NCBI RefSeq assembly: GCF_028330985.1
Contig: NZ_JAQMUE010000111.1
Span: 1-64,000, forward strand
Direction of reading: 5' to 3'
Length of the DNA: 64,000 nucleotides
Source of the DNA: Roseofilum reptotaenium CS-1145
Lineage (GTDB): Bacteria > Cyanobacteriota > Cyanobacteriia > Cyanobacteriales > Desertifilaceae
In this document: one piece after another, positions 39,701-56,687 of the stretch
Numbering within the stretch: position 1 is the stretch's first letter
How the letters are laid out: each line of letters begins with the position of its first letter
Made by a program: the position numbers and the translations under genes
The notes under the pieces: model-generated
What the model saw: only the letters and a program-made list of their open reading frames with translations
Told to the model about the DNA's origin: nothing
The model's database searches: none

Positions 39701-42430
39701 ACAAGAGATACAGGAGCAGTGCAGCAGCGATCGCTACAGTTTCTGACGTTTGGTATTTTCCCAGAAATTGTACCCGATTTTTCATGGGTTAAGCTCTGCG
39801 TTACTCCAGATCTGGAGCGCGATCCATTGTACCCGATGGCACTCAAAGCTCAAGAGAAACTCAGAGAACTCTGTTTTTCCCAAGTTGATTTTTCTGCCTG
39901 TCAAACCGTTTTAGATTTTGGCTGTGGGTATGGTTCAGATATCATTAGTCTGGGACAAAAACATCCTCATCTGCAATTAAATGGCTATACGATTTCCAGC
40001 GAACAAGCTAAATTTGCTACCCAACAAGTGAAGGGCTATGGTTTAGAGAAGCAAATCAAAGTCTTTAATCGAGATAGCAGTAAAGACGAGTTTCCCAATC
40101 ACTACGATCTTGTCTTTGGATTTGAAGTCGCCCATCATATTAAAGAAAAATCCAATCTATTCTCCAATATCAGTCGGCATATGTGCGAAAATGGCTGGTT
40201 AGTCCTGGCCGATTTTATCGCCCATGGAGAAGTCGATATCGATCATGAAGAAACCTCTTCTTATTTTATTACCAAACACCATTGGGTTGAGCAACTTTCC
40301 CAACATCAACTCCAACTTACCGGGTTTATTGATGTGAGTCGGGAAATTGCCAATTTTCTCTATGCTCCAGATTTTGAAGAAATTCTGCATGAACTTTATG
40401 CAGAAAATCCAGATGATAATGTCAGAGCAGCATTCCAATCTTATAATCAATTGGGTAAGTTACTCGAGAGAAAGTTGGGAAGTTATGTGTTATTAACTGC
40501 GAGAAAGTGTGAAACGCGATCGCTAGAAGAATTACGGTTATTGAACCAAGACGCGTTTAACCATCCGGTAGTTTATTCGGAAGTTGAACCGGAGGAATGG
40601 GTGTATGGGTTAAGTTGGGAGCGTGATGAAATTACTCCAAGGGATGGAGAACGAGAGCCTGTAGGAAAGTGGTTGATCTTGGCCAATAAACCGGAAATCA
40701 GGCAACCATCAGCTCCCTTTTTAAGTGATAGCTGTATTTGGGTCTCTCCTGGTCTGACGTATCAGCAATTAGAGGATCGAGATTACCAAATTAATCCCCA
40801 AGAACCCGATCATTTTCATCAGTTACTCAAGGCAGTTAATAGACCCGAATCTCCTCTGCAAGGAGTCATTCATCTTTGGAGTGTGCAAACTTCAATTGAT
40901 GAGTTAGACGCATCTCAAGAACTCAGTTGTCTGAGTACTCTCTATCTGGTTCAAGCCTTAGTTTCCCAAACGCAATGGTCTGGAAGATTACTCCTGGTAA
41001 CCCAAGGCGCTCAAGCTGTAGATCGTGACTCTTGGGTGCAAAACCCCCAACAAGCATCCCTTTGGGGGTTAGGGAAGGCGATCGCCTTAGAACATCCAGA
41101 ACTTCAGTGTCAATGTATTGATTTAGACCCCAAAATAGAGGTATCACAATCCTTACCTTTTCTAGCCACAGAATTGTGTCATCCAGATGAGGAAAACCAA
41201 ATTGCCTTTCGCAACCGTGTCCGCTATGTTCCGAGGTTAGTCCACCGACGCAAGTACTCTGAATCTGAGGCTCAAACCTCCCTTACTTTACGCTCGGATG
41301 CCACTTATTTAATCACGGGAGGATTGGGAGGATTAGGGTTAAATGTAGCTCAATCTATGGTCAAACAAGGAGCTAAATCTCTCGTTCTCACTGGGCGTAA
41401 TCTTCCCTCTGCTCAAGCCAAAGAAATCATCACTCAACTCAAAGAAAATGGAGTGCAAGTTTCAGTGATACAGGGAGATATTTCCCGACGGGAAGATATT
41501 GCTCTGATTTTGGCTCAAATCGAGTCTTCTCTTCCTCCATTAAAAGGGCTTGTCCATGCAGCAGGAGTCCTCGAAGATGGGGTCATGCAAAATATGAGTA
41601 AAGCACAATTGACGAAAGTCATGGCTCCTAAAGTACAAGGCAGTTGGTATTTACATGAACTCACGCAAAAGATGACCTTAGATTTCTGGATTTGCTTTTC
41701 TTCAATTGCTTCTTTATTCGGGTCATTGGGTCAAGGTAACTATGCAGCAGCCAATGCATTTATGGATGGATTGGCTCACTATCGGTGGGGGTTAGGATTA
41801 CCTGGATTAAGTATTAATTGGGGAGTATGGGGCCAATCCGGAATGGCGGCTCGTTTATCCCAGGAACAGCAAGAGCGAATTAAGATGAGCGGAATGGGCG
41901 TGATGCTACCCGAAAAAAGCTTGCAGGTGCTGTCTGAGTTATGGTCAGAAGCCAGCGGACAAGTTGCCGTATTTTCTGTTAACTGGTCTGAGATTTTTGC
42001 TAACCTTCCGTCTGGGGTAAACCTGCCGGTCTTACAGAACTTTGAGTCAGGACGTTCAACTCTAGAACCCGAACTTTCTTTATTGGAGTCCTTGAAATCT
42101 GCATCAGCACCAGAACAAAAAACGCTCCTCATTGATTATCTACAGCATCAAGTGGCACGCGTTCTAGAAATGCCAGTGACTCAAATGGATATCCATCAAT
42201 CTCTAACGATGATGGGAGTTGATTCTTTGATGGCAGTTGAATTACGGAATCGATTTAATACTCAATTAAAAGTTGATGTCCCCATTACTCGGTTTATCGA
42301 AGGGGTAACTATTGCTACTTTATCGGTTGAGATCGAGGAGCAAATTTTTGCGGAAGCTGACTTGGGCGATCGCCCCTTCTCCGATCCGATCGCGGATAAC
42401 TCTGTTAATCGTATACAAGGAACCCTATGA
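36707..42430 (+). CDS. Type I PKS module 6: KS-AT-MT-KR-ACP
   Basis: 1907 residues. N-terminal docking coiled coil, KS with Cys206, AT with Ser662 (GHSVGEY, SHAFH), a SAM methyltransferase of the same type as module 4 (DFGCGYGSD at ~1070), KR with GGLGGLG at ~1538, an LED motif (B-type) and Tyr1679 (GQGNYAAAN), so active by motif, and ACP Ser1840 (MGVDSLMA). The C-terminal ~30 residues do not show the LSEEE helix of the other PKS proteins, fitting a hand-over to an NRPS protein with a TubC-type docking domain. The stop overlaps the next start as ATGA, so translation is coupled. Confidence 0.92.
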   Translation: MSINSGKSESALKRALRAVEDMQSKLEAMDYARREAIAIIGMGCRFPGGVSSPETFWHLLSEGTDAITEIPQDRWNIDEYYDPDPEAPGKMYTRYGGFIEELKGFDPGFFGISGKEATFLDPQQRLLLEVAWESLEQAAINPEHLEKSLTGVFVGISGNDYTQIAGSNIEEINPYLASGNAHSSASGRLSYVLGLTGPNVAVDTACSSSLVTVHLACMSLRNQECNLALAGGVNRLISPLTHINHSRARMLSADGRCKAFDDSADGFVRSEGCGMVVLKRLSDAVRDRDNILAVIRGTALNQDGHTSGLTVPNGPSQQAVIRKALENGQIDPSEVSYIETHGTGTSLGDPIEAGALGAVFGSSHSPENPLRIGSVKTNFGHAEAAAGIAGLIKVVLQLQHQTIVPHLHCHQPSSKIDWQHFPLQVPMQLTPWSVGDKQRRLAGVSSFGFSGTNAHLVVEEAPVSLTETRKEEPKSPYYLLTLSAKSELALNNLVRCYQSHLATHPELELSDIAYTTNIGRSHLNYRLSLIASNHSELSEQLRQFPNAEGIGMFVGEGASQGNSPKIAFLFTGQGSQSLHMGKSLYETQPVFRQACEECDQILRDELEYSILDVISGKSSQGTEDSLLNQTAYTQPALFVIEYALCQLWQSWGVQPQGVMGHSVGEYVAATIAGVLSLAEGLKLIAARGRLMQQLPSGGGMISVMTSESKVRDRISPYAEQVAIAAINGPESVVISGENEALQAIATTLESEGIKTKPLVVSHAFHSPLMEPMLNEFAGIARQIQYKKPQLPLISNVTGKRADSSITTPEYWVNHVRQPVRFADSMQTLYQEGYEIFLEIGPKPILLGMGRQCLPPDWGIWLPSLRPGVEDGQQMLSSLAQLYIRGIEVDWLGVHRHSARQKVALPTYPFERKNYWIEVKEEKRDRSNLASSPILNLIDRGEVQDLIEELNLAAIFSAEEAEVLPKVLSLLIDRHQNHLQFKGNIVHDYYNSAIALTQETRDTGAVQQRSLQFLTFGIFPEIVPDFSWVKLCVTPDLERDPLYPMALKAQEKLRELCFSQVDFSACQTVLDFGCGYGSDIISLGQKHPHLQLNGYTISSEQAKFATQQVKGYGLEKQIKVFNRDSSKDEFPNHYDLVFGFEVAHHIKEKSNLFSNISRHMCENGWLVLADFIAHGEVDIDHEETSSYFITKHHWVEQLSQHQLQLTGFIDVSREIANFLYAPDFEEILHELYAENPDDNVRAAFQSYNQLGKLLERKLGSYVLLTARKCETRSLEELRLLNQDAFNHPVVYSEVEPEEWVYGLSWERDEITPRDGEREPVGKWLILANKPEIRQPSAPFLSDSCIWVSPGLTYQQLEDRDYQINPQEPDHFHQLLKAVNRPESPLQGVIHLWSVQTSIDELDASQELSCLSTLYLVQALVSQTQWSGRLLLVTQGAQAVDRDSWVQNPQQASLWGLGKAIALEHPELQCQCIDLDPKIEVSQSLPFLATELCHPDEENQIAFRNRVRYVPRLVHRRKYSESEAQTSLTLRSDATYLITGGLGGLGLNVAQSMVKQGAKSLVLTGRNLPSAQAKEIITQLKENGVQVSVIQGDISRREDIALILAQIESSLPPLKGLVHAAGVLEDGVMQNMSKAQLTKVMAPKVQGSWYLHELTQKMTLDFWICFSSIASLFGSLGQGNYAAANAFMDGLAHYRWGLGLPGLSINWGVWGQSGMAARLSQEQQERIKMSGMGVMLPEKSLQVLSELWSEASGQVAVFSVNWSEIFANLPSGVNLPVLQNFESGRSTLEPELSLLESLKSASAPEQKTLLIDYLQHQVARVLEMPVTQMDIHQSLTMMGVDSLMAVELRNRFNTQLKVDVPITRFIEGVTIATLSVEIEEQIFAEADLGDRPFSDPIADNSVNRIQGTL

Positions 42431-45400
42431 ACTTAGTTGAATTTCTTCAAGATCTCTCAATTCAAGGTTGGAAACTTTGGTCAGACAATGGAGGATTGTC
42501 CTATGATGCTCCTGGCGATCGCTCCATTGATGCTGTATTAGCTCAACTCAAAGAACACAAAGATGAAATTCTACGCTTACTCCAAGAAAATCCAGGCATT
42601 TTGCAGGTTTATCCCCTGTCCTATAGTCAACAAGCCATGTGGTTTTTATGGCAATTAGCCCCGGAGAGTCATGCCTTTAATTCATCCTTAGCCCTGCGCA
42701 TCTGTTCAACGGTGGATGTAGTCGCCTTACATCAGACCTGTCAAACTTTGCTTGAACGCTACCCGATATGGCGCACCATTTTTCCTCAGCGAGGTCAAGA
42801 ACCGATTCAACAGGTCTTAGAGGATCGGTCTATCGATTTTCAGCCAATTAAGAGTTCAACGTTAACTGAAGAGCAGCTTAAAGCTCAAGTCATTGCCGCC
42901 CATCAAGAAGCATTCGAACTCCAACAAGGGCCCATTGTTCGAGTTCGATTATTTACTCGTGCGGAAAACGATCATGTCCTCTTAGTTACAACTCACCACA
43001 TTGCGAATGATATTTGGTCGATTGATATTTTGCTGCAAGAATTGCCACAAATCTATCAAAGTATACAAGAAGGAGTCCAGGAAACCCTGCCTCAGATTCA
43101 ATACTCGTATTTGGATTATGTACGTTGGCAACGCAACCTCTTAGCCAGCGATCGCGGCGAAAAACTGTGGAACTACTGGCATCAGAAACTAGCCGGTGCA
43201 AACGGTATACTCCCTCTGCCTTGCGATCGGCCTCGACCGCTTCAACAAACCTACAATGGAACATACCATCTGTTTACCCTTTCCGAAGACCTAAGCGCAA
43301 AACTTCAGGAACTCGCTCAACAAGAAAGTTCTACCTTATACATGGTTTTGCTGGCTGCTTATCAGGTCTTACTCTATCGTTACACCCAACAAGATGAGAT
43401 TTTAGTCGGATCGCTAACATCTGGTAGAACCCAACCCGAATTTGCACCGATCTTTGGCTATTTTACCAATCCAGTCGTGATGAAAGCAAATTGTGCTGGA
43501 TATTTGTCGTTTCGACAGTTTCTAGCGCAAGTTAAACAGACCGTTTTAGAAGCACTAGCTCATCAAGATTTCCCCTTTTCTTTGCTCGTCGAACGATTAC
43601 AAGACTCCCGCGATCCGAGTCGTCCTCCCATTTTTCAAACCATGTTTGCCTTACATAAGCTTCAGCAGTCTCAATCCTTCCAAAACTTGATGTTGGGAGA
43701 AGATAAAACCTTGAACAATTGGGGAGGATTAGCCGTTAAGCCCTTTGATATTCCTATGGCTGAGGGGCAATTTGATTTAACCTTAGAAATCACAAAAACA
43801 GAATCCTCTTTGATCGGCATCCAAAAATATAATACAGATTTATTCGATCCAGAAACTATTGTGCGGATGGTGGGTCATTTCCAGGTGTTGTTAGCAGGAA
43901 TTATCACGAACCCAGATTGTAAACTGTCTCAGTTACCTCTACTTACAGAAACTGAAAAACAAGACCTGATCAACATCAATCACGATCCCGCTAAAAATGA
44001 AGGTTTTGATTCATCCCCGATTCATATTTTAGATGCTTTTGGGCAACGGGTTCCCCTAGGAATAGAAGGAGAGCTTTATACCAGCGATCGCTCTTTGAGT
44101 TCTGAGCAGTCCAAGTCTTTCGACCATCCAGAATTGGGTCGTTTATACTCAACTGGAGAATGGGGAAAACGCTCGGGGAATGGAACTTTAGAACGACTGG
44201 GAGAGGTGAAACGGATCGTCTCGGTTAAAGGACGAAGAGTGAACTTGCAAGCTGTAGAAGAAGCACTACACTCCCTCGCGGACATTCAGCAGTGTTCTGT
44301 GTGCGGCGATCGCCAAGGAGAGTTAGTGGCTTATATCGTGCCCTCTAATCCTCTATCCCTATCATCTATTGAGTTACAGATCAAGTCTGAGCTACCTGTA
44401 GAGCTTCAACCCTCGGTCCGTATTCCTGTGGTAGCCTTGCCTTACACTCAGCAGGGTAAGATTGACACAGATCGTTTAGCGCAGTTAGAGGCGATCGATT
44501 CTGAGTTGGTTGAACAGTGGCAAGAACAACTCGATAAAATTTCGAGTATCGAACAAGTTGCTGTTGTCATAGAACCGAAAAAATTTGCGCCTCCATCTCT
44601 CCTCCATTTATGGGATCTTCTACCGGAAGATAACTTATCCATTTCTGAACCCGACGCATCTTCTGCGAGCGATCGGGTATCGTCATCTAAAAACAGTCAT
44701 TCCCGCCTTAATATCCCAGCAATGAGTGAGGGTGGAGAATTACAGTTTCCAGAAAAAGCTCCTCAAAACTTATCTGAAGCCTTGATTCAAGCTGCACAAA
44801 ATCCTTCGGAGACAGGACTCATTTACCTGAATGCGGATGGCTCGGAAGAAAGACAATCTTATACTCAGTTGCTGCACCAGGCACAATGCATTTTAGCCGG
44901 CTTGAGACAACGGGGTTTGAAGCCTCAAGACAAAGTTATTTTTCAGCTCGAAAACTCTCAAGACTTTATTCCAGCATTTTGGGGATGTGTGTTAGGGGGA
45001 TTTATTCCTGCTCCCTTATCGTTTCCAGTCAATTCTGACTGGAGTAAATTACAAAATACTTTGGAATTATTAGAATTCCCTTTAGTCTTAACCACTCGAA
45101 ACCATAGCAGAACTTTAGAAAAGTGGGCGCAAGAGTTAAAATGGTCTAACGTTCAAGTCGCCACCTTAGAAGATCTACAAACTGGTAAGGCCGAAACTGA
45201 CTATTATTCCAGTCAACTGGATGAATTAGCCTTACTCATTCTCACATCAGGCAGCACCGGAAAACCCAAGGGCGTTATGCTCACCCATGGAAATATTCTG
45301 AGCCGCAGTGAAGGAGCCAAACGTTGCCATGAGTATAGTTCAAAAGATGTTTCTCTCAATTGGTTTCCTTTAGATCATGTGGTCGGTTTAGTCATGTTCC

Positions 45401-48366
45401 ATATCCGAGATGTATATCTCGGTTGTCAGCAAATTCAAGCCCATATTAATATGGTTCTCAATCATCCTGTTACCTGGATAGATTGGTTAGAGAAATATCA
45501 AGTTACCGTAACTTGGGCCCCAAATTTTGCTTATGGTTTGATTAATGCACAATCTGAAGCAATTGAGCAAGGTCATTGGGATTTATCTTCTGTGCGCCAT
45601 ATGATTAATGGGGGGGAAGCGATCGTTGATAAGACTGCACGACAGTTTATGCAATTACTGACTCCACACCAATTGATAAAAACAGCAATGAAACCAGCTT
45701 GGGGAATGTCAGAAACCAGTTCAGGAATCGTGTTTTCTAAGGATTATACTTGGGACGGAGAACGGGAAGATATGCCTTTTGTCGATCTAGGGCTTCCTAT
45801 TTCTGGAGTCTCTCTAAGAATTGTCAATGAGCAGAACAAACTCCTTGAAGAAGGGGAAATTGGTCAGATTCAAATTCAAGGGGTGACTGTCACTCAAGGG
45901 TATTATAACAATCGAGAGAAACAAGAAGAAGCATTTACTCCCGACAGTTGGTTTAAAACGGGAGATTTAGGTTTTCTTCAAGAGGGTCGGTTAACGATTA
46001 CGGGAAGACAGAAAGATGTGATTATTATTAATGGGATTAACTATTATAGTCATGAAATTGAAGCAGTTGTTGAAGAGTTGGAAGAGGTAGAAGTTTCCTA
46101 TACTGCCGCTTGTGGAGTTCGTCAACGCCAAGATGATAGCGATCGGTTAGCTGTGTTTTTTAGTCCTAAGAACTTGAGCGATTCAGAGAAAATACAACTG
46201 CTGAAAAAAATTCGGACTCAAGTGATCCAATCGATGGGAATTAATCCAGATTTTTTGATTCCAGTTCATTCAGAAACGATTCCGAAGACGGCTATTGGTA
46301 AAATTCAGCGATCGCAGTTAAAACAGCGTTTTGAAGCGGGAGAGTTTAAGCCGATCTTAAAACAGGTGGATTTGCTGCTTGAAAATCAGAACACACTACC
46401 CAATTGGTTTTATCGGCAAATTTGGCAACCCAAAGCAGTAGAAGGGGTTTATCTTCAGCCCCACAAGGGTTTAACACTCATCTTTTTTGAGGGTGAAGGA
46501 TTAGCCCGTGGGTTAGTAGAGCAATTGACGAAACATCATCAATCCTATATCCAAGTCATTGCCGGTTCTGAGTTTACTCAAATCGATGAACAGTGCTATT
46601 CTATTGCTCCGGATCGCCCAGAGCATTATCAGCAACTTCTGGAGTCTGTATCCATTCAGGATTGTCCGATTGCTCAAATCATTCACCTAGGGCAATATCA
46701 CACTCAAACCCAAGAAATTAGTAGCACGGAGGAATTGGAAGCAGCACAAGAGCAAGGATTATATAGCCTCTTGTTTCTCTCTCAAGCTCTGGAAAAAAAT
46801 GGAAATCTAGACCAGCCCCTACAGTTGTTTTGGGTCACAAGTTTGACTCAAAGGGTAGAGCCGAGCGATCGCATTGCTCCTGAAAAGGCAACCGTTTTAG
46901 GGTTGGTGAAAACTCTACCTCAAGAAATCCCTGGATTCGCTTGTCGCCATATCGATCTATCGGTAACCGACACTGAAGAGGAGCAGAAAACCGATTTGTG
47001 GCAAGAACTCTGTACAGTTTGTCCAGATGTGGAAATTGCGTATCGCCATGGCAAACGATATACTTCCGGTTTGCAAGTTGTCCCTTGGGACTGGGGAGAT
47101 AAACCTCAACTGCCCTTTAAACCCGGAGGCACTTATCTCCTCAGTGGTGGATTAGGTGGCATCGGGGTAAAAGTGGCTCAGTATCTTTTACGGACCTATC
47201 ATGCTCGACTCTTATTGGTGGGGCGCACCCCTTTACCATTACTAACCTCGGAAAAACAGGACACTTATCAACAGTTACAAACTTTGCCAGGAGAAGTCAT
47301 TTATCAGGCGGTTGATATTGCTCATGAGCAACAGGTACACCAAGCGGTTCATTCGGCGATCGCTCTATGGGGAAGTCCACTCGATGGCGTAATTCATCTG
47401 GCAGGAACCCTACAGGAAAAGCCTGTCTTATCCGAGACTCAAGCGAGTGTGGCTGAGGTGTTGCGTCCCAAAGTTTTAGGAACGTGGGTGTTACATCAAT
47501 TGGTTAAAGATCATCCAAAGAGTATATTTATTCACTTTGCTTCGGTGAATGGATTTTTAGGGGGATCGACGGTAGGCGCTTATGCTGCCGCAAATAGTTT
47601 TCAAGGGGCATTTAGCGAATATCAAAATGCCCAAACTCCCGTGCAAAGTTATGGCTTGGCCTGGAGTATGTGGGATGAAATCGGTATGAGTCAAGGCTAC
47701 CAGATGAAAGAGCTGAGTCAGGCAAAAGGATATTGTGCGATCGCCCCTTCTCAAGGACTGACCTCCCTGCTCGCCACCCTATCTCAACCTCCCGGCTATT
47801 GGTTTATTGGACTCGACTCCACCAAACCCTATATCCAGTATTTGCTCTCTAACTGCCAGAATTTACAACAGTTAACCGCCTATTTTACGTCCGGGGAAAA
47901 ATGGGCCGTCAATCCATGGCAAGATCTACAAGTGCGCGATCTCCTAGGAACCCTTACCCACTGTGAAGGCGTGCAACTCGAAGAAATGCCCTTAACAGAA
48001 ACCGGTGATATCGATCTCCGGCAACTGCTGGGGAGCAACTTGAATTCCAAAGACCCCCAAAATCAACAACCGCGCACCCCCACAGAACATCAACTGGTGC
48101 AAATCTTTGAAGCCGTCCTCAAGGTTTCTCCAGTCGGAATTTATGACAACTTCTTTGAATTAGGCGGCCATTCCCTACTGGCAACTCAGTTAGTCTCCCG
48201 TATCTGCCAAACCTTTGAAATTGATATTCCTTTAAACCTAGTCTTTCAAAGCTCCACTCTTCTGGAACTCGCTGAACGAATTGATGGCATTTGCACGTTA
48301 CTCGTCGATGCCCAAGTCAATCCCACTGAAGATTTACAACCCGGTGAAGAAGAAATCGAATTATAA
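42427..48366 (+). CDS. NRPS module 7: TubC docking-C-remnant A-acyl-adenylation-KR-PCP
   Basis: 1979 residues. Residues 1-55 fit a TubC N-terminal docking domain. The condensation domain is ~60-500, with HHIANDIWS at 190-198 (Gly of HHxxxDG is Ile). Residues ~530-690 are a leftover A-domain C-terminus (see separate entry). A complete acyl-adenylating domain spans ~775-1305 with LTSGSTGKPKG at ~939 and the LDHVVGLVMF and DVYLGCQQ segments known to me from AerA/McyG-type loading domains, which lack the amino-binding Asp. KR has GGLGGIG at ~1575 and Tyr1719 (GAYAAANSF). PCP Ser1916. This fits activation of an alpha-keto acid and reduction to an alpha-hydroxy acid, which the C domain would link to the polyketide as an ester. 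The acidic C-terminus (GEEEIEL) could dock to the next NRPS. Confidence 0.85.
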   Translation: MNLVEFLQDLSIQGWKLWSDNGGLSYDAPGDRSIDAVLAQLKEHKDEILRLLQENPGILQVYPLSYSQQAMWFLWQLAPESHAFNSSLALRICSTVDVVALHQTCQTLLERYPIWRTIFPQRGQEPIQQVLEDRSIDFQPIKSSTLTEEQLKAQVIAAHQEAFELQQGPIVRVRLFTRAENDHVLLVTTHHIANDIWSIDILLQELPQIYQSIQEGVQETLPQIQYSYLDYVRWQRNLLASDRGEKLWNYWHQKLAGANGILPLPCDRPRPLQQTYNGTYHLFTLSEDLSAKLQELAQQESSTLYMVLLAAYQVLLYRYTQQDEILVGSLTSGRTQPEFAPIFGYFTNPVVMKANCAGYLSFRQFLAQVKQTVLEALAHQDFPFSLLVERLQDSRDPSRPPIFQTMFALHKLQQSQSFQNLMLGEDKTLNNWGGLAVKPFDIPMAEGQFDLTLEITKTESSLIGIQKYNTDLFDPETIVRMVGHFQVLLAGIITNPDCKLSQLPLLTETEKQDLININHDPAKNEGFDSSPIHILDAFGQRVPLGIEGELYTSDRSLSSEQSKSFDHPELGRLYSTGEWGKRSGNGTLERLGEVKRIVSVKGRRVNLQAVEEALHSLADIQQCSVCGDRQGELVAYIVPSNPLSLSSIELQIKSELPVELQPSVRIPVVALPYTQQGKIDTDRLAQLEAIDSELVEQWQEQLDKISSIEQVAVVIEPKKFAPPSLLHLWDLLPEDNLSISEPDASSASDRVSSSKNSHSRLNIPAMSEGGELQFPEKAPQNLSEALIQAAQNPSETGLIYLNADGSEERQSYTQLLHQAQCILAGLRQRGLKPQDKVIFQLENSQDFIPAFWGCVLGGFIPAPLSFPVNSDWSKLQNTLELLEFPLVLTTRNHSRTLEKWAQELKWSNVQVATLEDLQTGKAETDYYSSQLDELALLILTSGSTGKPKGVMLTHGNILSRSEGAKRCHEYSSKDVSLNWFPLDHVVGLVMFHIRDVYLGCQQIQAHINMVLNHPVTWIDWLEKYQVTVTWAPNFAYGLINAQSEAIEQGHWDLSSVRHMINGGEAIVDKTARQFMQLLTPHQLIKTAMKPAWGMSETSSGIVFSKDYTWDGEREDMPFVDLGLPISGVSLRIVNEQNKLLEEGEIGQIQIQGVTVTQGYYNNREKQEEAFTPDSWFKTGDLGFLQEGRLTITGRQKDVIIINGINYYSHEIEAVVEELEEVEVSYTAACGVRQRQDDSDRLAVFFSPKNLSDSEKIQLLKKIRTQVIQSMGINPDFLIPVHSETIPKTAIGKIQRSQLKQRFEAGEFKPILKQVDLLLENQNTLPNWFYRQIWQPKAVEGVYLQPHKGLTLIFFEGEGLARGLVEQLTKHHQSYIQVIAGSEFTQIDEQCYSIAPDRPEHYQQLLESVSIQDCPIAQIIHLGQYHTQTQEISSTEELEAAQEQGLYSLLFLSQALEKNGNLDQPLQLFWVTSLTQRVEPSDRIAPEKATVLGLVKTLPQEIPGFACRHIDLSVTDTEEEQKTDLWQELCTVCPDVEIAYRHGKRYTSGLQVVPWDWGDKPQLPFKPGGTYLLSGGLGGIGVKVAQYLLRTYHARLLLVGRTPLPLLTSEKQDTYQQLQTLPGEVIYQAVDIAHEQQVHQAVHSAIALWGSPLDGVIHLAGTLQEKPVLSETQASVAEVLRPKVLGTWVLHQLVKDHPKSIFIHFASVNGFLGGSTVGAYAAANSFQGAFSEYQNAQTPVQSYGLAWSMWDEIGMSQGYQMKELSQAKGYCAIAPSQGLTSLLATLSQPPGYWFIGLDSTKPYIQYLLSNCQNLQQLTAYFTSGEKWAVNPWQDLQVRDLLGTLTHCEGVQLEEMPLTETGDIDLRQLLGSNLNSKDPQNQQPRTPTEHQLVQIFEAVLKVSPVGIYDNFFELGGHSLLATQLVSRICQTFEIDIPLNLVFQSSTLLELAERIDGICTLLVDAQVNPTEDLQPGEEEIEL
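44010..44490 (+). other. Gutted adenylation-domain remnant inside NRPS module 7
   Basis: Between the C domain and the working adenylation domain lie ~160 residues that align by eye with the end of an amino-acid A domain: VPLGIEGELYTSD, LYSTGEWGK (for LYRTGDL), LERLGEVKRIVSVKGRRVNLQAVEEAL in consecutive parts (for LGRxDxQVKIRGxRIELxEIE) and TQQGKIDTDRL (for the A10 motif). Core motifs A1-A6, including the ATP loop, are absent. It cannot activate a substrate. Confidence 0.78.
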
Positions 48367-48411: not shown

Positions 48412-49305
48412 ATGAAAACTCTGAGCTTACCTCCCTTATCTAACAGCCTAGAAGAAGCCCGCACACACTTTGAAGAATTTGGCTTTGCCTTAATTGCTAA
48501 CGCCCTTTCCCCGGATGAAGTCAAAGAAGCCAAAGAACGTCTGATTGAACAAGCCAAAGCTGAACGAAAAGCCGGTGTTGCCATGATGGATAGTGGCGCA
48601 ACATTTAACCCCAATGGCCCCAATCAACGCGTCTGGAGCTTAATTACCAAAGGCGAAATTTTTCGCCGAATTGCCATCAAAGAGGCCCCTTTAAATCTGA
48701 TTCGAGATAGATTTGCCGCTACCAATGATGGCCCCATGCCAGAACCCTTTGCGGGTGAAGCTCTGTTATCTTCCTTGAGTGCCAATATTGCCTGTAAAGG
48801 AGGCTCCGCCATGCCCTTACATTTCGATCAGGGCTATTTACCGGTCACGCCCTATCCCATGGTGATTAACATGATGTGGATGCTCTCGGACTTCACCGAA
48901 GAGAATGGAGCCACCCTAATGGTTCCGGGTTCCCATAAACTCAAACCTCAGCAAGTGATGAAAGGACAAGCCATTCCTGTACCAGAAGAAGCTCCCGAAC
49001 CGATCCCTGCTGTTGCTCCTGCGGGGACAGCGATGGTATTTGATGGCCGACTGTGGCATGGCACGGGAGTCAACAAAACCGATGAACCCCGCTATGGGAT
49101 TTTGGCTTATTATTGTCGTCCCTTTATGCGTCAGCAAGAACATTTCTGGCTGACTCTCGACTGGGAAGAAGTCAATAGCTATGCTCCTGAATTAAAGGAA
49201 CTCTTAGGCTTAAAAATGTGGGGGCCCCTTGGTATGGCAGGGAATGGAAAAGATGGCACGGTTCAAGAGGTTGGCGCTCCTGTTATCCGAGAGATGCATC
49301 GGTAA
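48412..49305 (+). CDS. Phytanoyl-CoA dioxygenase (PhyH) family Fe(II)/2-oxoglutarate oxygenase
   Basis: A 297-residue non-haem iron oxygenase. The metal triad is visible as His137-x-Asp139 (LHFDQGY) and His216 (LWHGTGVN), and Arg227 (DEPRYGI) is placed to bind 2-oxoglutarate. Length is normal for the family. It lies between two NRPS genes on the same strand with gaps of 45 and 68 bases, so it is almost certainly a tailoring enzyme of this pathway, likely a hydroxylase of a carrier-bound or released intermediate. The hydroxylated position cannot be read from sequence. No clear Shine-Dalgarno precedes the ATG. Confidence 0.88.
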   Translation: MKTLSLPPLSNSLEEARTHFEEFGFALIANALSPDEVKEAKERLIEQAKAERKAGVAMMDSGATFNPNGPNQRVWSLITKGEIFRRIAIKEAPLNLIRDRFAATNDGPMPEPFAGEALLSSLSANIACKGGSAMPLHFDQGYLPVTPYPMVINMMWMLSDFTEENGATLMVPGSHKLKPQQVMKGQAIPVPEEAPEPIPAVAPAGTAMVFDGRLWHGTGVNKTDEPRYGILAYYCRPFMRQQEHFWLTLDWEEVNSYAPELKELLGLKMWGPLGMAGNGKDGTVQEVGAPVIREMHR

Positions 49306-49360: not shown

Positions 49361-49365
49361 GGGAG
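49361..49365 (+). promoter_or_regulatory. Shine-Dalgarno that sets the start of the terminal NRPS
   Basis: GGGAG lies eight bases before ATG 49374. The longer in-frame start at GTG 49365 would overlap this sequence and is less likely. Confidence 0.6.
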
Positions 49366-49373
49366 TGTCTGCG

Positions 49374-52300
49374 ATGAAACCTATCGATCAATTTCTGTCA
49401 GAACTGCGTGAATTGGGCGTTAAAGTGTGGGTTGAAGGCGAGAAACTGCGCTGTCGCGCTCCAGAAGGCGTGTTAACCCCAAGTATGCGAGGCACCTTGT
49501 CAGAGCGCAAAGCAGAGATTATCCGGTTTCTCAATCAAAGCTTAACTCCGGTTCAAACTCTACCCGCCATTTCTCCCATCCCTCATGATGGCAGTCCTCT
49601 CCCCCTTTCTTGGGCCCAAGAAAGACTCTGGATTCTTGACCAACTGGAAGGGAAGAGTTCTGTCTACAATGTGCCTGGAGCCTTCCGAATTACGGGAGAT
49701 CTTCAGGTTCCTATCCTAGAATCAGCTTTGGCGGAAATCATTCGCCGCCATGAAGTTCTACGGACTCGCTTTGAATCGCTAAATGGCACTCCAGTACAGG
49801 TTATTGACCCCCCAGTTGAGTTTGAACTTTCGATCCAAGATTGGCAACATCTCCCCCTAACCCAACAACAGGAGCAGTTAAACCGAGAAATTCGCCGTGA
49901 AGCTCAAGCTCCCTTTGATTTAGCAACTGGGCCTTTATTGCGCGTGAGTTTAGTTCGACTTTCAAGAACAGAGTCGGTGTTGCTGGCTAATTTGCACCAT
50001 ATTATCTGTGATGGTTGGTCAGTGGGTGTCTTGTTCCAAGAGTTATCCACACTCTATCAAGCGTATCTTCAGGGAGAACCCTCTCCTTTGCCTGAACTGC
50101 CGATTCAATATGCTGACTATAGCCAATGGCAGCGCACTTGGTTAAGTGGGGAAGTTCTGGAGACTCAATTGGGATATTGGCAACAAAAACTGGCTGATGC
50201 TCCTGGTTTATTACAATTGCCAACGGATAGACCTCGACCGGCAGTGCAAAGTTATCGGGGCGAACACCAAGTATTTACCTTGCCTCCCCATCTGACGGAA
50301 CCCTTGCAACAGCTCAGTCAAAAGGCAGGTGCAACGTTATTTATGACCCTATTGGCAGCGTTTTCCACACTGCTGTATCGATATAGTAGCCAAGATGATA
50401 TTTTAATCGGTTCGCCGATCGCCAATCGCGATCGCCAGGAAGTTGAACCTCTGATGGGGTGTTTTGTCAATACCTTAGTCTTGCGAACCCAGTTTCCAGA
50501 CGATATAACCTTTGAGCAATTGCTTACTCAAGTCCGGGAAGTCACTTTAGAAGCCTATACTCACCAAAATGTGCCATTTGAACAGGTGGTGGATGCGCTG
50601 CAACCGGAACGTAATTTGAGCCATTCCCCCCTATTTCAAGTGATGTTTGTATTGCAGAATGCTGGAGCCTTATCCTGTGAGTTACCAGGAGTGAGTTTTG
50701 AACGCTTAAGCTCCCAGATTGCCACCTCTCGATTTGACCTTACCCTCTCCATGGAGGAAACCGACCAAGGAATTTTAGGCTATTGGGAGTATGCTACCGA
50801 TTTGTTTGATGCTGCGACTATTGCCCGCATGGCAGGTCACTTGCAGGTACTATTAGAGGCGATCGCCGCTAACCCCCAACAGAAGATCGGCGAACTCCCC
50901 CTACTCACAGAAGCAGAACGCCATAAGTTACTTGTAGAGTGGAACAATACCACCACTGATTATCCTAGGGATAAATGTATTCATCAGTTATTTGAAGAAC
51001 AAGCTGAACGGACTCCTGATGCGATCGCTATTATCTTTGGACAAGAGCAGTTAACCTACCGAGCATTAAATCAGAAAGCTAATCAATTAGCTCGCTATCT
51101 GCAACGTTTAGGAGTACAACCTGAAGCACTGGTGGGAATTTGTGTTGAACGTTCCCTAGAGCTGATTGTGGGCATCTTAGCCATTCTCAAAGCGGGAGGA
51201 GCGTATGTACCTCTAGACCCCAATTATCCAGCAGAGCGTTTGAGTTATATGATAGCGGATGCCAACGTTCCGGTCTTAGTCACCACTCAGGATGGCTTAG
51301 AGAGGTTACCCGAACCTCAAGCGCAAGTGGTGTGTTTAGATAGGGATTGGGAGGCGATCGCTACACAAAGCCAAGAAAATTTACGCAATAAAATCAATAT
51401 CCAATCTCTAGCGTATATTATCTATACCTCCGGTTCCACAGGCAAACCTAAAGGGGTAATGATTCCTCATAAAGCTGTTGTACGCTTAGTAATAAAGACA
51501 AATTATTTACAACTGAAGGGGGGCGATCGGGTCGCTCACGCCTCTAATCCCTCTTTTGATGCTGCAACGTTTGAAATTTGGGGGGCACTCTTAAATAGAT
51601 CGACTTTGATTATTATCCCCAAAGACACGCTCATGACTCCGGAAAAATTGGCTGCTTGTCTATGGGAAGTCTCCATTGATCATCTTTTTATTACAACTGC
51701 CTTATTCAATCAAATTGCAAGACAAGTACCCACCCTCTTTAAATTTTTAAAGAGTTTACTGTTTGGTGGTGAAGCTGTCGATCCAACTTGGGTCAAACAA
51801 ATTTTAGACAAGGGTAGACCAGAACGGTTACTTCATGTATATGGCCCCACAGAAAATACAACATTTTCCAGTTGGTATTTAGTGGACAACGTTCCAGACG
51901 ATGCTACTAATTTACCAATTGGTTCTCCCTTATCAAATACTCAATTCTATGTTCTTGACTCTAATTTAACTCCTGTTCCTATTGGAGTACCAGGAGAACT
52001 ATATGTTGGAGGTGATGGTTTAGCGAGAGGTTACCTCAATCGACCTGAATTAACAGCAGAGAAATTTATCAACAACCCTTTTGATTCTGGAAACCAGACC
52101 AGTAAACTGTATAAAACTGGCGATTTAGTTCGCTATCTACCCGATGGCAACATTGAATTCCTCGGAAGAATAGACACTCAAGTGAAAATTCGCGGATTTC
52201 GCATCGAACTGGGAGAAATTGAAGCCATTTTATCCACTCATTCCCACGTCGAGCATGGTATTGTCATCCCACGAGAAGATACACCCAATAGCAAACGCTT

Positions 52301-55300
52301 AGTTGCCTATGTTGTGAGCGAAAATCCCGATCTTACTCCTCTAGATCTACGGCAATTCGTGCAAGATAAACTACCAGAGTATATGATACCTTCTGCATTT
52401 GTTATACTCGAAAAACTCCCCATTACCCCCAATGGGAAAGTAGATAGAAAAGCCTTACCTGCTCCAGATATTGAATTAACCAGAACAGAAGAATTCATTG
52501 CTCCTCAAAATAAAATAGAACAGACGTTAGCTGAAATTTGGCAAGACGTTTTAGGATTACAGCGAGTAAGCGTGAATGATAACTTTTTTGAAATTGGAGG
52601 AGATTCAATTATCAGCATTCAAATTGTTTCTCGCGCTCAACAAGCAGGCATTGGCTTGACTGCCAAGCAACTGTTTCAACATCAAACTATTGCACAACTC
52701 GCAACCGTTGCCAGTACACTACAACCATCCTCTGCTCAACAAAACCGTGTGACGGGTGAAGTTCCGCTTACTCCCATCCAGCATTGGTTCTTTGAGCAAA
52801 ATCTTGCTGAACCTCACCACTTTAACCAATCTTTTCTCCTCAAAGTCCCTGCTGATATTAACCCCCAGTTTCTATCCACAGCCATAGAAAAAATTGTAAA
52901 CCACCATGATGCTCTACGTTTGCGATTTTTTAAGAATGAAACAAGCTGGAAACAAATCAATAAGAACGTAGAAGAAATTATTCCATTTGAGAGAGTTGAT
53001 TTATCCTCAGTACCTCCCTCTGAACAAACCCGTGTTTTAGAAGACAATATTGCTCACCAACAGACGACCTTAAATCTGGCTGAAGGCCCTCTTATTAGAA
53101 GTCTCCTCTATCAAGTTGGAAAACAGACAGAAGGACGTTTACTGATTGTTGCCCATCACCTAGTTATCGATGGAGTTTCTTGGCGTATTGTATTAGAAGA
53201 TTTATCAGCCGTTTACCAACAACTAGAGAAGGGTGAACCCCTACAACTTCCTGCAAAAACCACAGCATTTCAAGATTGGTCAATTCATCTTTTAGAATAC
53301 AGCAAATCTCCCCATCTTCAATCGCAACTAAACTATTGGTTGACTCAATCTCAAGACTATAAACTACCTATCGATTATCCAGAAAACACCACTCACAATA
53401 CAGTTGGAAATACGGATAATATTTCCGTACAGCTAACTTCAGAAGAAACTCAAGCTCTCTTACAAGAAGTCCCCTCCGCTTATAATACCCAAATTAATGA
53501 TATCTTACTCACTACCTTAGTACAAACGTTCAAAAATTGGAGCGGACAATCAACTCTATTTCTAGACTTAGAAGGACATGGACGCGAAGAATTGTTTGCT
53601 GACATCGATTTATCTCGAACCGTGGGTTGGTTTACCAGTGTCTTTCCCATTATACTCCAACAACCTGTGGAAGATAATATAGGGGAAAATATTAAATCGA
53701 TTAAAGAACAACTACGAGCAATACCCCATCGTGGGATTGGCTACGGTATTTTACGTTATCTCAGCTCAGATCTAGAAATTAAGTCTGGACTTTCAGCTCT
53801 CCCACAACCTGAAATAAGCTTTAACTATTTAGGTCAATTTAATCCGAATGAATCTCAAAAGAATTCTTGGCAAGTCGCTTCAGAAGCCATGGGTTTAGTT
53901 CAAAGCCCTCATGGCAAGCGTCCCCATATATTAGATATTACAGGAATCGTCTTGAAGGATAAATTGCAAATTGATTGGACGTACTGTAATTATCTGCATC
54001 AACGATCAACCATCGAAACTTTAGCAGAAAATTATATCAATAACTTAAAAGCACTCATTCATCACTGCCAATCTCCAGAAACCGGTGGATATACTCCTTC
54101 AGATTTTCCTGCTGTTCAGTTCACACAGATTCAGTTAGATACCATTATCTCAGATATTCAACAAGAAAATCATAACCCAGTCAAGATAACTGCAATTTAT
54201 CCCCTTTCTCCCTCACAACAAGGAATGTTATTTGAGTCCTTATCCGCTTCAGAATCTGGAGTTCATATTGAACAGGTTGTTCTGAATTTAGAAGGAGATT
54301 TAGATATGCAAGCGTGGCAGAAAGCTTGGAAAAGTTTGATAGATAGACATGAGATTTTGAGGACTGGTTTTCTATGGAAAGATTATGATAAGCTCGCTCA
54401 GTTTGTTTTGCAAAGTGTACCTTATGAGTTACAAGTTGAGGATTGGAGAGCAGAAAAAGATATTCAAGAAAAGTTGGCTCAATATATTCGGATAAAGCAA
54501 GAGAAAGGCTTTAACTTAACCCAAGTTCCTCTTCTGGATTTATCTCTATTTCGATGGGAAGATAAAGCCTATTATTTTGTTTTCACAGTACACCATGTTT
54601 TGGTAGATGGATGGTCTTTAGGAGTCATATTCAAAGACCTATTAACACTCTATCAAGGATTGACTCAGGATTCTCATTTTTCCTTATCTCCTACCTATCC
54701 CTATCAAAACTATATCACGTGGTTATACAGTCAAGATTTGACTGAAGCTCAGGAATTTTGGCAAGAAAAATTACGAGGATTCACCCAACCTACTCCGTTA
54801 GGAAAAGAAGTTTCATCGGATGACTTTGCGCTTCCAGAACAACCATATGGTCGTCGAGTAATTAGTTTATCTGAGTCCTCTACAGAAGCTCTGAATCTTC
54901 TCGTCAAGAAAAATCGAGTTACTTTCAATATTCTGATTCAAGGAATTTGGGGATTATTGTTAAGTCGCTATAGTCATCAATTAGATATCGTTTTTGGGGC
55001 TTCTGTTTCGGGTCGTCCTCCAGAAATTTCTGGAATTGAGTCTATGGTTGGCTTATTGATTAATACTGTTCCAATTAGGTGTACTGTTATTCCCGATCTT
55101 CCTCTGTGGTCTTGGTTACAAGAACATCAACAACAACAATTTCAACAAAAATCCTATGAATATTGTTCTCAAGGCCAAATTCATTCCTGGAGTGAGATCT
55201 CCATGTCATCACGGTTGTATGACAGTATCCTAGTCTTTGAAAATTATCCAGTTGATGCCTCAATCAAAAATTTTTCAGGGTTTAAGATTAGCCTTAATCA

Positions 55301-56687
55301 AAATCATTCTTTAGGAGCACAAACTCAGTCTAGTTTAACTATTCTGGCGATTCCTGGCTCCAATTTCAAAATTAATGTTGTTTATAGTCATTCTAAATTC
55401 AAGGGGTCGGAAATTAAAAAAATACTCGATCATTTTCTCATGATTTTCGATTTGATTATTAAAAATCCTGAAATAACTTTAACAGAGATCGCTAATGCGA
55501 TTTCAGACGATCAAGTTCCACAGGTTAATCCGGATCACTTATTCAAGGAAATTACGAGTCAGGATAGTCAAGAATCCTTCCTTTTACCGCGAAATTCTAC
55601 CGAGCGAAAGCTGGCAAAAATTTGGTCAGATATTCTTCAAATTGAACCCATAGGAATTAGAGATGGCTTTTTCAATCTGGGTGGACATTCGCTTTTAGCA
55701 CTAAAATTGATGGCTAAAATTGAGCAGGAGTTCGATCGGCATCTTTCCCTATCCACTCTCTTTCAAGCTCAGACTATTGAAAAACTGGCGATATGCTTGC
55801 AAGAATCAACAGATTTTAATTCTTGGTCAGCCTTAGTCCCGATTCAAACTCAAGGAAATCAACCTCCTTTCTTTTGTGTTCCAGGAGCGGGTGGAAATGT
55901 GATTTATTTGTCTAATTTGGCTTGTTATTTAGGAGAAGAGCGACCTTTCTATGGGTTTCAATCCAGAGGTTTGGATGGAGCATCAGAACCCTACACTACA
56001 GTCGAAGCTATGGCGAGGGATTATATTGGATATATTAAAGCGGTACAACCAGAAGGGCCTTACTATTTAGGGGGTCATTCTTTCGGTGCTTTAGTGGCTT
56101 TTGAGATGAGTCAGCAACTAGAAGCGCAAGGGGATAGAGTGGCTCGACTGGTGATTCTGGATAGTCCAGTTCCAGATGCGCTAGAAAATAAACCGAATAT
56201 CGATCGCGATTGGTCTCTTTCCCGGAAACTGATTTTAGTGGTGGCATTAATTGAACAGTTTTTTGGCACGGAAATCGGAGTATCTGCGGAAGTTTTGGAA
56301 TCCCTCGAAGCAGAAGAACAATGGCAATATATCTATGAACAGCTACAAACCGTGGGCTTTTTCCCCGAAGGAGCAGGGGTTCAACAGATTCGAGGGTTTG
56401 TGAATGTGTTAATGAGTGATTATGACGCAAGCTATTCTTATTACCCGCAAAGCAATTATCACATTCCGATCGTGTTATTGAAGGCAAGAGATACGGTCTC
56501 TGAAGATATGGCAGAAAAAGGCTTTGGCCATACTCTCAAAGCAGAGATTGCCAGCGATCGCCTCTGGGGTTGGGGTCGTTTCTCCTCTGAACCCGTAGCA
56601 CTTTATACTGTACCAGGTACACACTTAACTATGTTAAAACCCCCTCATGTCCAAGTCTTAGCAGAAACCTTGCGAAATTGTTTTTAA
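49374..56687 (+). CDS. Terminal NRPS (modules 8 and 9): TubC docking-C-A-PCP-E-C-PCP-TE
   Basis: About 2437 residues. TubC docking domain 1-55. C1 with HHIICDGWS at 208. A domain ~515-1030 with YTSGSTGKPKG at ~684; placing the ten specificity positions by eye gives D-A-F-F-L-G-V-T-F-K, a branched-chain aliphatic class (Ile, Leu or Val). PCP1 Ser1078 in GGDSI, the form that precedes epimerases. E domain ~1100-1540 with HHLVIDG at 1261, EGHGRE and FNYLGQF. C2 ~1580-2040 with HHVLVDGWS at 1740, expected to be the D-specific type that follows E. PCP2 Ser2106 (GGHSLLA). TE ~2160-2437 with Ser2236 (GGHSFGAL), an Asp in ILDSPVPD and His in PGTHLTM. The last module has no A domain. The TE should release or cyclise the product. 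The stop overlaps the convergent radical SAM gene by four bases. Confidence 0.92.
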   Translation: MKPIDQFLSELRELGVKVWVEGEKLRCRAPEGVLTPSMRGTLSERKAEIIRFLNQSLTPVQTLPAISPIPHDGSPLPLSWAQERLWILDQLEGKSSVYNVPGAFRITGDLQVPILESALAEIIRRHEVLRTRFESLNGTPVQVIDPPVEFELSIQDWQHLPLTQQQEQLNREIRREAQAPFDLATGPLLRVSLVRLSRTESVLLANLHHIICDGWSVGVLFQELSTLYQAYLQGEPSPLPELPIQYADYSQWQRTWLSGEVLETQLGYWQQKLADAPGLLQLPTDRPRPAVQSYRGEHQVFTLPPHLTEPLQQLSQKAGATLFMTLLAAFSTLLYRYSSQDDILIGSPIANRDRQEVEPLMGCFVNTLVLRTQFPDDITFEQLLTQVREVTLEAYTHQNVPFEQVVDALQPERNLSHSPLFQVMFVLQNAGALSCELPGVSFERLSSQIATSRFDLTLSMEETDQGILGYWEYATDLFDAATIARMAGHLQVLLEAIAANPQQKIGELPLLTEAERHKLLVEWNNTTTDYPRDKCIHQLFEEQAERTPDAIAIIFGQEQLTYRALNQKANQLARYLQRLGVQPEALVGICVERSLELIVGILAILKAGGAYVPLDPNYPAERLSYMIADANVPVLVTTQDGLERLPEPQAQVVCLDRDWEAIATQSQENLRNKINIQSLAYIIYTSGSTGKPKGVMIPHKAVVRLVIKTNYLQLKGGDRVAHASNPSFDAATFEIWGALLNRSTLIIIPKDTLMTPEKLAACLWEVSIDHLFITTALFNQIARQVPTLFKFLKSLLFGGEAVDPTWVKQILDKGRPERLLHVYGPTENTTFSSWYLVDNVPDDATNLPIGSPLSNTQFYVLDSNLTPVPIGVPGELYVGGDGLARGYLNRPELTAEKFINNPFDSGNQTSKLYKTGDLVRYLPDGNIEFLGRIDTQVKIRGFRIELGEIEAILSTHSHVEHGIVIPREDTPNSKRLVAYVVSENPDLTPLDLRQFVQDKLPEYMIPSAFVILEKLPITPNGKVDRKALPAPDIELTRTEEFIAPQNKIEQTLAEIWQDVLGLQRVSVNDNFFEIGGDSIISIQIVSRAQQAGIGLTAKQLFQHQTIAQLATVASTLQPSSAQQNRVTGEVPLTPIQHWFFEQNLAEPHHFNQSFLLKVPADINPQFLSTAIEKIVNHHDALRLRFFKNETSWKQINKNVEEIIPFERVDLSSVPPSEQTRVLEDNIAHQQTTLNLAEGPLIRSLLYQVGKQTEGRLLIVAHHLVIDGVSWRIVLEDLSAVYQQLEKGEPLQLPAKTTAFQDWSIHLLEYSKSPHLQSQLNYWLTQSQDYKLPIDYPENTTHNTVGNTDNISVQLTSEETQALLQEVPSAYNTQINDILLTTLVQTFKNWSGQSTLFLDLEGHGREELFADIDLSRTVGWFTSVFPIILQQPVEDNIGENIKSIKEQLRAIPHRGIGYGILRYLSSDLEIKSGLSALPQPEISFNYLGQFNPNESQKNSWQVASEAMGLVQSPHGKRPHILDITGIVLKDKLQIDWTYCNYLHQRSTIETLAENYINNLKALIHHCQSPETGGYTPSDFPAVQFTQIQLDTIISDIQQENHNPVKITAIYPLSPSQQGMLFESLSASESGVHIEQVVLNLEGDLDMQAWQKAWKSLIDRHEILRTGFLWKDYDKLAQFVLQSVPYELQVEDWRAEKDIQEKLAQYIRIKQEKGFNLTQVPLLDLSLFRWEDKAYYFVFTVHHVLVDGWSLGVIFKDLLTLYQGLTQDSHFSLSPTYPYQNYITWLYSQDLTEAQEFWQEKLRGFTQPTPLGKEVSSDDFALPEQPYGRRVISLSESSTEALNLLVKKNRVTFNILIQGIWGLLLSRYSHQLDIVFGASVSGRPPEISGIESMVGLLINTVPIRCTVIPDLPLWSWLQEHQQQQFQQKSYEYCSQGQIHSWSEISMSSRLYDSILVFENYPVDASIKNFSGFKISLNQNHSLGAQTQSSLTILAIPGSNFKINVVYSHSKFKGSEIKKILDHFLMIFDLIIKNPEITLTEIANAISDDQVPQVNPDHLFKEITSQDSQESFLLPRNSTERKLAKIWSDILQIEPIGIRDGFFNLGGHSLLALKLMAKIEQEFDRHLSLSTLFQAQTIEKLAICLQESTDFNSWSALVPIQTQGNQPPFFCVPGAGGNVIYLSNLACYLGEERPFYGFQSRGLDGASEPYTTVEAMARDYIGYIKAVQPEGPYYLGGHSFGALVAFEMSQQLEAQGDRVARLVILDSPVPDALENKPNIDRDWSLSRKLILVVALIEQFFGTEIGVSAEVLESLEAEEQWQYIYEQLQTVGFFPEGAGVQQIRGFVNVLMSDYDASYSYYPQSNYHIPIVLLKARDTVSEDMAEKGFGHTLKAEIASDRLWGWGRFSSEPVALYTVPGTHLTMLKPPHVQVLAETLRNCF

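Follow-up and report, generated by a model that had tools for sequence, protein, structure and literature searches.

StsA is said to be an initiation module of the order A-KR-T that handles a keto acid, and its adenylation-ketoreductase (A-KR) unit reportedly has one half of a split pseudoAsub on either side. A cassette consisting of A, KR and PCP is also characteristic of AerA-type loading modules. The StsA structures (PDB accession codes 6ULW, 6ULX and 6ULY) carry an aliphatic residue in place of Asp235; counting along the printed chain places Ile at position 306 and Met at position 415, the same numbers as those given in PMC11253843. According to PMC4558948, Val235 is found in A-KR didomains of the HapC, HctE, HctF and NpnA kind, HctE and HctF take 2-oxoisovalerate in ATP-PPi exchange, and the KR lies between A8 and A9. 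The A domain of HcaB (hectoramide B) retains Asp235 with a non-fitting code, as stated in PMC10949194; there, the same module of HcaB also possesses a KR, a CAL domain and other domains, the CAL domain being viewed as possibly non-functional and the first A domain taken as the active one, and similar CAL domains are mentioned for the cryptophycin, hectochlorin and didemnin B clusters. In open-licence papers we found no description of a dead A domain preceding an A-KR unit, and the feature may have been noticed earlier.

The window, a stretch of 64,000 nucleotides from Roseofilum reptotaenium CS-1145, contains such an arrangement in the protein of module 7, which is encoded by a single uninterrupted open reading frame of 1979 codons for amino acids (Table 1). 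Pfam, PDB and HMM alignments bear out the order proposed for it in the initial annotation: a C domain, the C-terminus of an A domain, a complete keto-acid-type A domain, a KR and a PCP. Upstream of module 7 lie C-methylating PKS modules; directly 3' of it follows a gene for a PhyH-type dioxygenase and then a terminating NRPS that has three Condensation stretches but a single AMP-binding domain, along with two carrier proteins and a TE, and a radical SAM protein encoded on the opposite strand marks the end of the cluster. The dioxygenase may act on the hydroxy acid, since in Pseudanabaena sp. ABRG5-3 (L126), too, a PhyH-family gene lies close to the A-KR loading module.

Table 1. Features of the module 7 protein and of the genes that follow it in the window; aa, amino acid positions in the module 7 protein.
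Feature	Position	Strand	Evidence and remarks
Module 7 protein	42427-48366	+	single open reading frame, 1979 aa
TubC_N docking domain	42436..42588	+	Pfam PF18563, 4.9e-10, aa 4-54
Condensation (C) domain	42604..43968	+	Pfam PF00668, 1.7e-106, aa 60-514
A-domain remnant (ghost), A6-A10 end, amino-acid type	44008..44496	+	PDB A-domain C-termini; HMM; ghost clade
Asub part of ghost	about 44200-44496	+	within remnant 44008..44496
Split pseudoAsub, N half (borders approximate)	44500..44631 (~aa 692-735)	+	StsA 6ulw_A co-linearity; family profile
Keto-acid-type adenylation domain, complete (core + Asub)	44731..46386	+	McyG 4r0m_B, aa 769-1320; StsA 6ulw_A; Pfam AMP-binding, aa 788-1160
Ketoreductase (KR), structural and catalytic parts	46477..47679	+	Pfam PF21394, aa 1351-1517; PF08659, aa 1568-1751
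Split pseudoAsub, C half, A10-like end (borders approximate)	47860..48042 (~aa 1812-1872)	+	family profile; StsA co-linear match
Peptidyl carrier protein (PCP)	48091..48282	+	Pfam PF00550 (PP-binding), 1.9e-14, aa 1889-1952
PhyH-type dioxygenase	48412-49305		
Terminating NRPS	49365-56687		
Radical SAM protein	56684-58285	opposite	

The 163 amino acids of the remnant, referred to here as the ghost, match, among proteins of known structure, the C-terminal ends of amino-acid A domains. Thirty-seven distinct PDB sequences align with it at E ≤ 1e-5, the best being LgrA (E 1.5e-18; query residues 5-158 to chain residues 1546-1713), and with an HMM of 15 functional A domains it scores 61.7 bits over positions 319-489 of 493; only the Pfam profile AMP-binding_C responds weakly (aa 610-678; 22.3 bits, cut-off 24.5). 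By these scores the likeness to A-domain C-termini is far beyond chance. The alignment with A domains that had been proposed as a check thus upholds the assignment as an amino-acid A-domain C-terminus; the proposed extent, A7-A10, stands for its end and not for its start, as the remnant begins just before A6. The motif and HMM check of the window's remnant found A1-A5 absent, and it is not a functional amino-acid A domain. It retains an A10-like Lys, and its A10 motif reads D-T, without the D-E signature that is typical of ghosts.

Relatives of the cassette were collected at a match threshold of E ≤ 1e-150. They were found in 20 of the 386 genomes of a phylum sample and in 73 of the 388 genomes of an order sample, from which 20 partial matches were left out (19 with the A domain only and one, G649, with the middle part only). 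Within the genus, the window's genome and one other (G426) have the full cassette, and no full cassette was found in the four other genus genomes listed. A scan of named genomes yielded two loci, in the MAG UBA2566 (L011, 92% identical) and in Mastigocoleus testarum (L012, 47%), and four of the 12 plasmid records that matched the cassette were taken further. Altogether 95 rows were read, 21 of which (L056-L076) repeat places already present with longer flanks, leaving 74 distinct rows; the counts given below refer to the 62 complete ones, 60 from cyanobacteria plus one each from Paenibacillus (L124) and Streptomyces (L125). Dropped before counting were L084 (the same locus as L127), L077 (its ghost is partly masked; it serves only as partner of the window in pN/pS and dN/dS), L047 and L111 (without ghost and without pseudoAsub), L114 (upstream region masked), L117 (a stop close to where the match begins), L052 (ghost Asub present, frame interrupted within the KR), L121 (cassette cut; ghost scarred), and L092, L108, L122 and L123 (partial or at contig ends). 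Ghost extents were measured exclusively with the HMM of 15 P-loop-intact A domains (493 positions). That the remnant could be an assembly artefact or part of a broken pseudogene has next to no probability, given the single open frame, a 92% identical relative (L011, which is L077 on the same contig) that is in frame over its readable part while its upstream part is masked, and the same architecture on contigs of many other genomes.

The A domain downstream of the ghost is probably the working one. In the window, its P-loop and A10 Lys are intact, the position of Asp235 is occupied by Val and that of StsA residue 415 by Met. TSGSTG, the A10 Lys and Gly-Met at StsA positions 414-415 are kept in all 62 downstream A domains, and Asp235 is replaced by Val (47), Ile (12) or Pro (3). 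The window's KR has its NAD motif, Ser and Tyr; among the 62 cassettes the Ser is found throughout and the Tyr in 60. The two deviating KRs (L102 and L104), with Leu and Phe in place of the usual active-site Tyr, are perhaps inactive for want of this residue. The replaced Asp235, Gly-Met at 414-415 and the co-linearity with StsA agree with the keto-acid-type A-KR unit which the initial annotation had seen beside the remnant. From these residues, catalysis in the window's module is probably carried out by the StsA-type A domain, and a keto acid would be its substrate; for 4-methylthio-2-oxobutanoate, the example named in the initial annotation, the data contain no pointer. An A domain interrupted by a KR between A8 and A9 is ruled out, as in 62 of 62 cassettes an A10 of the GKI.R type, belonging to the downstream A domain itself, stands ahead of the KR. 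HapC, HctE, HctF and NpnA (C-A-KR-PCP or A-KR didomain), as described in PMC4558948, share Val235 and the A-KR pairing with module 7 but differ from it in the stated location of the KR.

What the initial annotation overlooked is that the A-KR unit of the window appears to be flanked by a split pseudoAsub, just as in StsA. The module 7 protein is co-linear with StsA (6ulw_A) over aa 701-1954 (E 9.4e-242), and the N half of the pseudoAsub aligns from chain residue 25 onward. The family profile of this N half weakly matches the A8 region of A domains and what follows it (E 0.0012, one target), that of the C half matches the A-domain end (E 3.3e-5, one target), and the profile of the ghost Asub family gives, for comparison, E 8.1e-30 (one target). 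The A9/A10-like piece 3' of the KR belongs to this split unit. In view of the profile matches of the flanking pieces, the module seemingly holds three Asub-like units: that of the ghost, the working one and the split one. StsA resembles the window in the aliphatic residue for Asp235, in Gly-Met at 414-415, in its KR and in both pseudoAsub pieces; it differs in that at most 24 chain residues precede the N half of the pseudoAsub, in a chain numbering that fits the published one, and this leaves no room for a ghost A domain.

The remnant is not peculiar to module 7. All 60 cyanobacterial cassettes counted have a ghost, at least its Asub part, and only those of Paenibacillus and Streptomyces have none. 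In extent, the ghosts form a graded series: eight are full-length, one is of middle length, 16, that of the window included, comprise A6-A10, and 35 consist of the Asub only, three of these in modules with a C domain and 32 in modules without. These 32, whose frames begin with the Asub or have it close to the N-terminus, resemble AerA-type loading modules (none was identified as AerA), which, unlike module 7, have neither a C domain nor the A6-A7 part. The P-loop is missing from eight of eight full-length ghosts, as measured against 15 functional domains that had been chosen for possessing it; only this loss clearly marks them as dead, since six of the eight keep the A10 Lys and three keep Asp235. 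A D-E in the A10 motif occurs in 50 of 60 ghosts and in none of the 15 functional A domains. Scars of truncation can still be read: L121 (G595:C714) runs in frame from an A-domain start straight into A8, so that this ghost apparently represents a step between the full-length and the Asub-only state, and in L127 and L035 the A-domain start is joined to the stretch before A6. The view that the core of an ordinary A domain was deleted and replaced by the cassette holds in its first half, to which the eight full-length relatives without P-loop and the scars in L121, L127 and L035 attest. It fails in its second half: because sister modules have a full dead A domain and the cassette side by side, the core was not simply replaced, and its truncation was probably later.

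The Lys retained in the window's ghost might be taken to mean that the ghost Asub is still catalytic and acts as a second mobile C-terminal subdomain for the downstream A domain. We consider this very improbable, since that Lys is missing from 48 of 60 ghosts (the window and six full ghosts are among the 12 that keep it), each of the 62 downstream A domains brings its own A10, and StsA manages without a ghost.

Trees indicate that the full, mid and half ghosts have one origin and descended mostly vertically. Against 15 functional A domains, the 25 ghosts of these three classes form one clade (100/99; 167 columns), as do the eight full ghosts when 490 columns are used (100/100), and the 16 halves are a clade of their own on the ghost tree (99/96). 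Ghost class changes seven times on the 62-row cassette tree, compared with a minimum of 16 and a mean of 24.4 in 1000 shuffles, and five times among the 27 rows with a C domain, where the shuffle minimum is seven; ghost and cassette distances are correlated (Mantel r 0.78, 24 rows; none of 2000 permutations as high). The window's ghost is sister to L078-L081 (89/89) and its cassette is nearest to the same rows by path, within an unresolved fork of 16 rows. The tree of all 60 ghosts, at 83 columns too short to place the Asub-only class, is mostly unresolved with functional domains inside; the D-E signature, the position and the profile assign the Asub-only ghosts to the same family. One full-length ghost, L053, stands among the halves on the cassette tree, and its placement with its cassette neighbours on the ghost tree is rejected (AU p 0.009). 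This result and the single clade of the 16 halves (99/96) weaken a repeated origin of the half truncation; a chimeric L053 is an equally good answer.

The term fossil, under which the remnant was first described, implies neutral decay, and substitution counts argue against it. Counted plainly without a codon model over 15 pairs, which share no row and do share branches, pN/pS is 0.33 for the ghost Asub (bootstrap 0.27-0.42) and 0.57 (0.45-0.72) for the linker; the A domain, KR and PCP reach 0.24, 0.28 and 0.26, and the N and C halves of the pseudoAsub 0.45 and 0.35. Eight pairs give 0.32 for the C domain and 0.35 for the A6-A7 part of the ghost. The pair formed by the window and L077 gives 0.33 for the ghost on 12 differences (six and six); the highest pair (L042-L099) stands at 0.72, and one pair had zero differences. 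Corrected dN/dS (21 pairs) agrees overall. With a value so close to that of the C domain, the ghost is hardly a neutral scar, and since it is seemingly protected by selection, it probably has a structural job. We therefore regard as unlikely, though by no means negligible, the reading that the remnant is linker left behind when the core was deleted, now disappearing and useful for spacing only. Such a leftover would fit the graded loss and readable scars among relatives, the strong divergence of the window's ghost (no end branch in the ghost tree of 40 rows is longer than its 1.06, with 0.6 for its cassette), the lack of a ghost in StsA, L124, L125, L047 and L111, and single ghost stretches whose corrected dN/dS rises, on few changes, to 0.69 (Asub) and 1.23 (A6-A7 part). 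It fits poorly with a pooled ghost value like that of the C domain and below that of the linker, with constraint on even the dead core of full ghosts (0.35, 0.36 and 0.38 in three pairs), and with the retention of the Asub unit even at the N-terminus of loading modules.

We judge it probable, with room for doubt, that an ancestral amino-acid A domain persists in module 7, stripped of its core, in a structural and non-catalytic capacity, while the downstream A domain performs catalysis. In this proposal, an amino-acid A domain would have stood before a keto-acid A-KR cassette in the common ancestor of the cyanobacterial α-hydroxy-acid modules. It would have lost its P-loop while still full-length, and an in-frame deletion would then have removed the core, leaving A6-A10 in extension modules such as module 7 and the Asub alone in most loading modules. 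The StsA-type A domain would adenylate a 2-keto acid and load it onto the PCP; after its reduction by the KR to the 2-hydroxy acid, the C domain would make an ester. Most likely the ghost would pack on the split pseudoAsub and the A-KR platform, or position them with respect to the C domain or the N-terminus. In two cyanobacterial cassettes outside the counts (L047 and L111, from genomes G129 and G543), the ghost and both halves of the pseudoAsub are missing together, a joint loss, probably by one event, that hints at a structural coupling between them. These two also indicate that cyanobacterial cassettes can lose the ghost, and the chemistry as such does not need it, as StsA and the Paenibacillus and Streptomyces cassettes do without. 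AlphaFold models of window aa 528-1330 and 690-1889, computed from three-row alignments, were unusable (mean pLDDT 37.1 and 35.8).

The initial annotation had set module 7 apart from the cryptophycin layout, and this contrast does not hold. A plasmid of Nostoc sp. ATCC 53789, given in PMC6835634 as the original source of cryptophycins, encodes a protein (L127, WP_114085955.1) with the same half remnant; genes for a P450, a dioxygenase, panD and a flavin oxidoreductase follow 3' of its gene. Strain and neighbouring genes make L127 the probable CrpD of cryptophycin biosynthesis. It shares with the window the order C domain, half ghost, pseudoAsub N half, keto-acid-type A domain, KR and PCP, and its remnant begins at HMM position 317, that of the window at 319; it differs in a cassette that is 50% identical and in a further module that precedes in the same protein. 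A wider statement is possible, though here our doubts slightly outweigh our confidence: the cyanobacterial hydroxy-acid modules, that of cryptophycin included, may share a pseudo-adenylation domain of single origin which is no longer catalytic and has become a scaffold that the keto-acid platform requires, in connection with the split pseudoAsub.

HcaB, whose Asp235-bearing A domain stands next to a CAL-type domain and a KR, resembles the class of full ghosts, the order being deduced from the figure legend and text of PMC10949194. Knowing HcaB by this description, we would read its CAL domain as the working keto-acid A domain, the reverse of the authors' view. If the wider statement on a shared scaffold is true, published A-CAL-KR annotations are to be turned around, the CAL domain being the A domain that works and the one annotated as A a dead scaffold. 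The role of the CAL domains, left as an open remark in the hectoramide B paper, becomes directly testable. For the engineering of such assembly lines, there is a warning as well: if a keto-acid module were swapped at an ill-chosen border, the ghost or the split pseudoAsub would be severed. The full dead domain, the half and the lone subdomain provide a readable series for a catalytic NRPS domain that is possibly turning into a structural one, and this series bears on how assembly lines change their building blocks.
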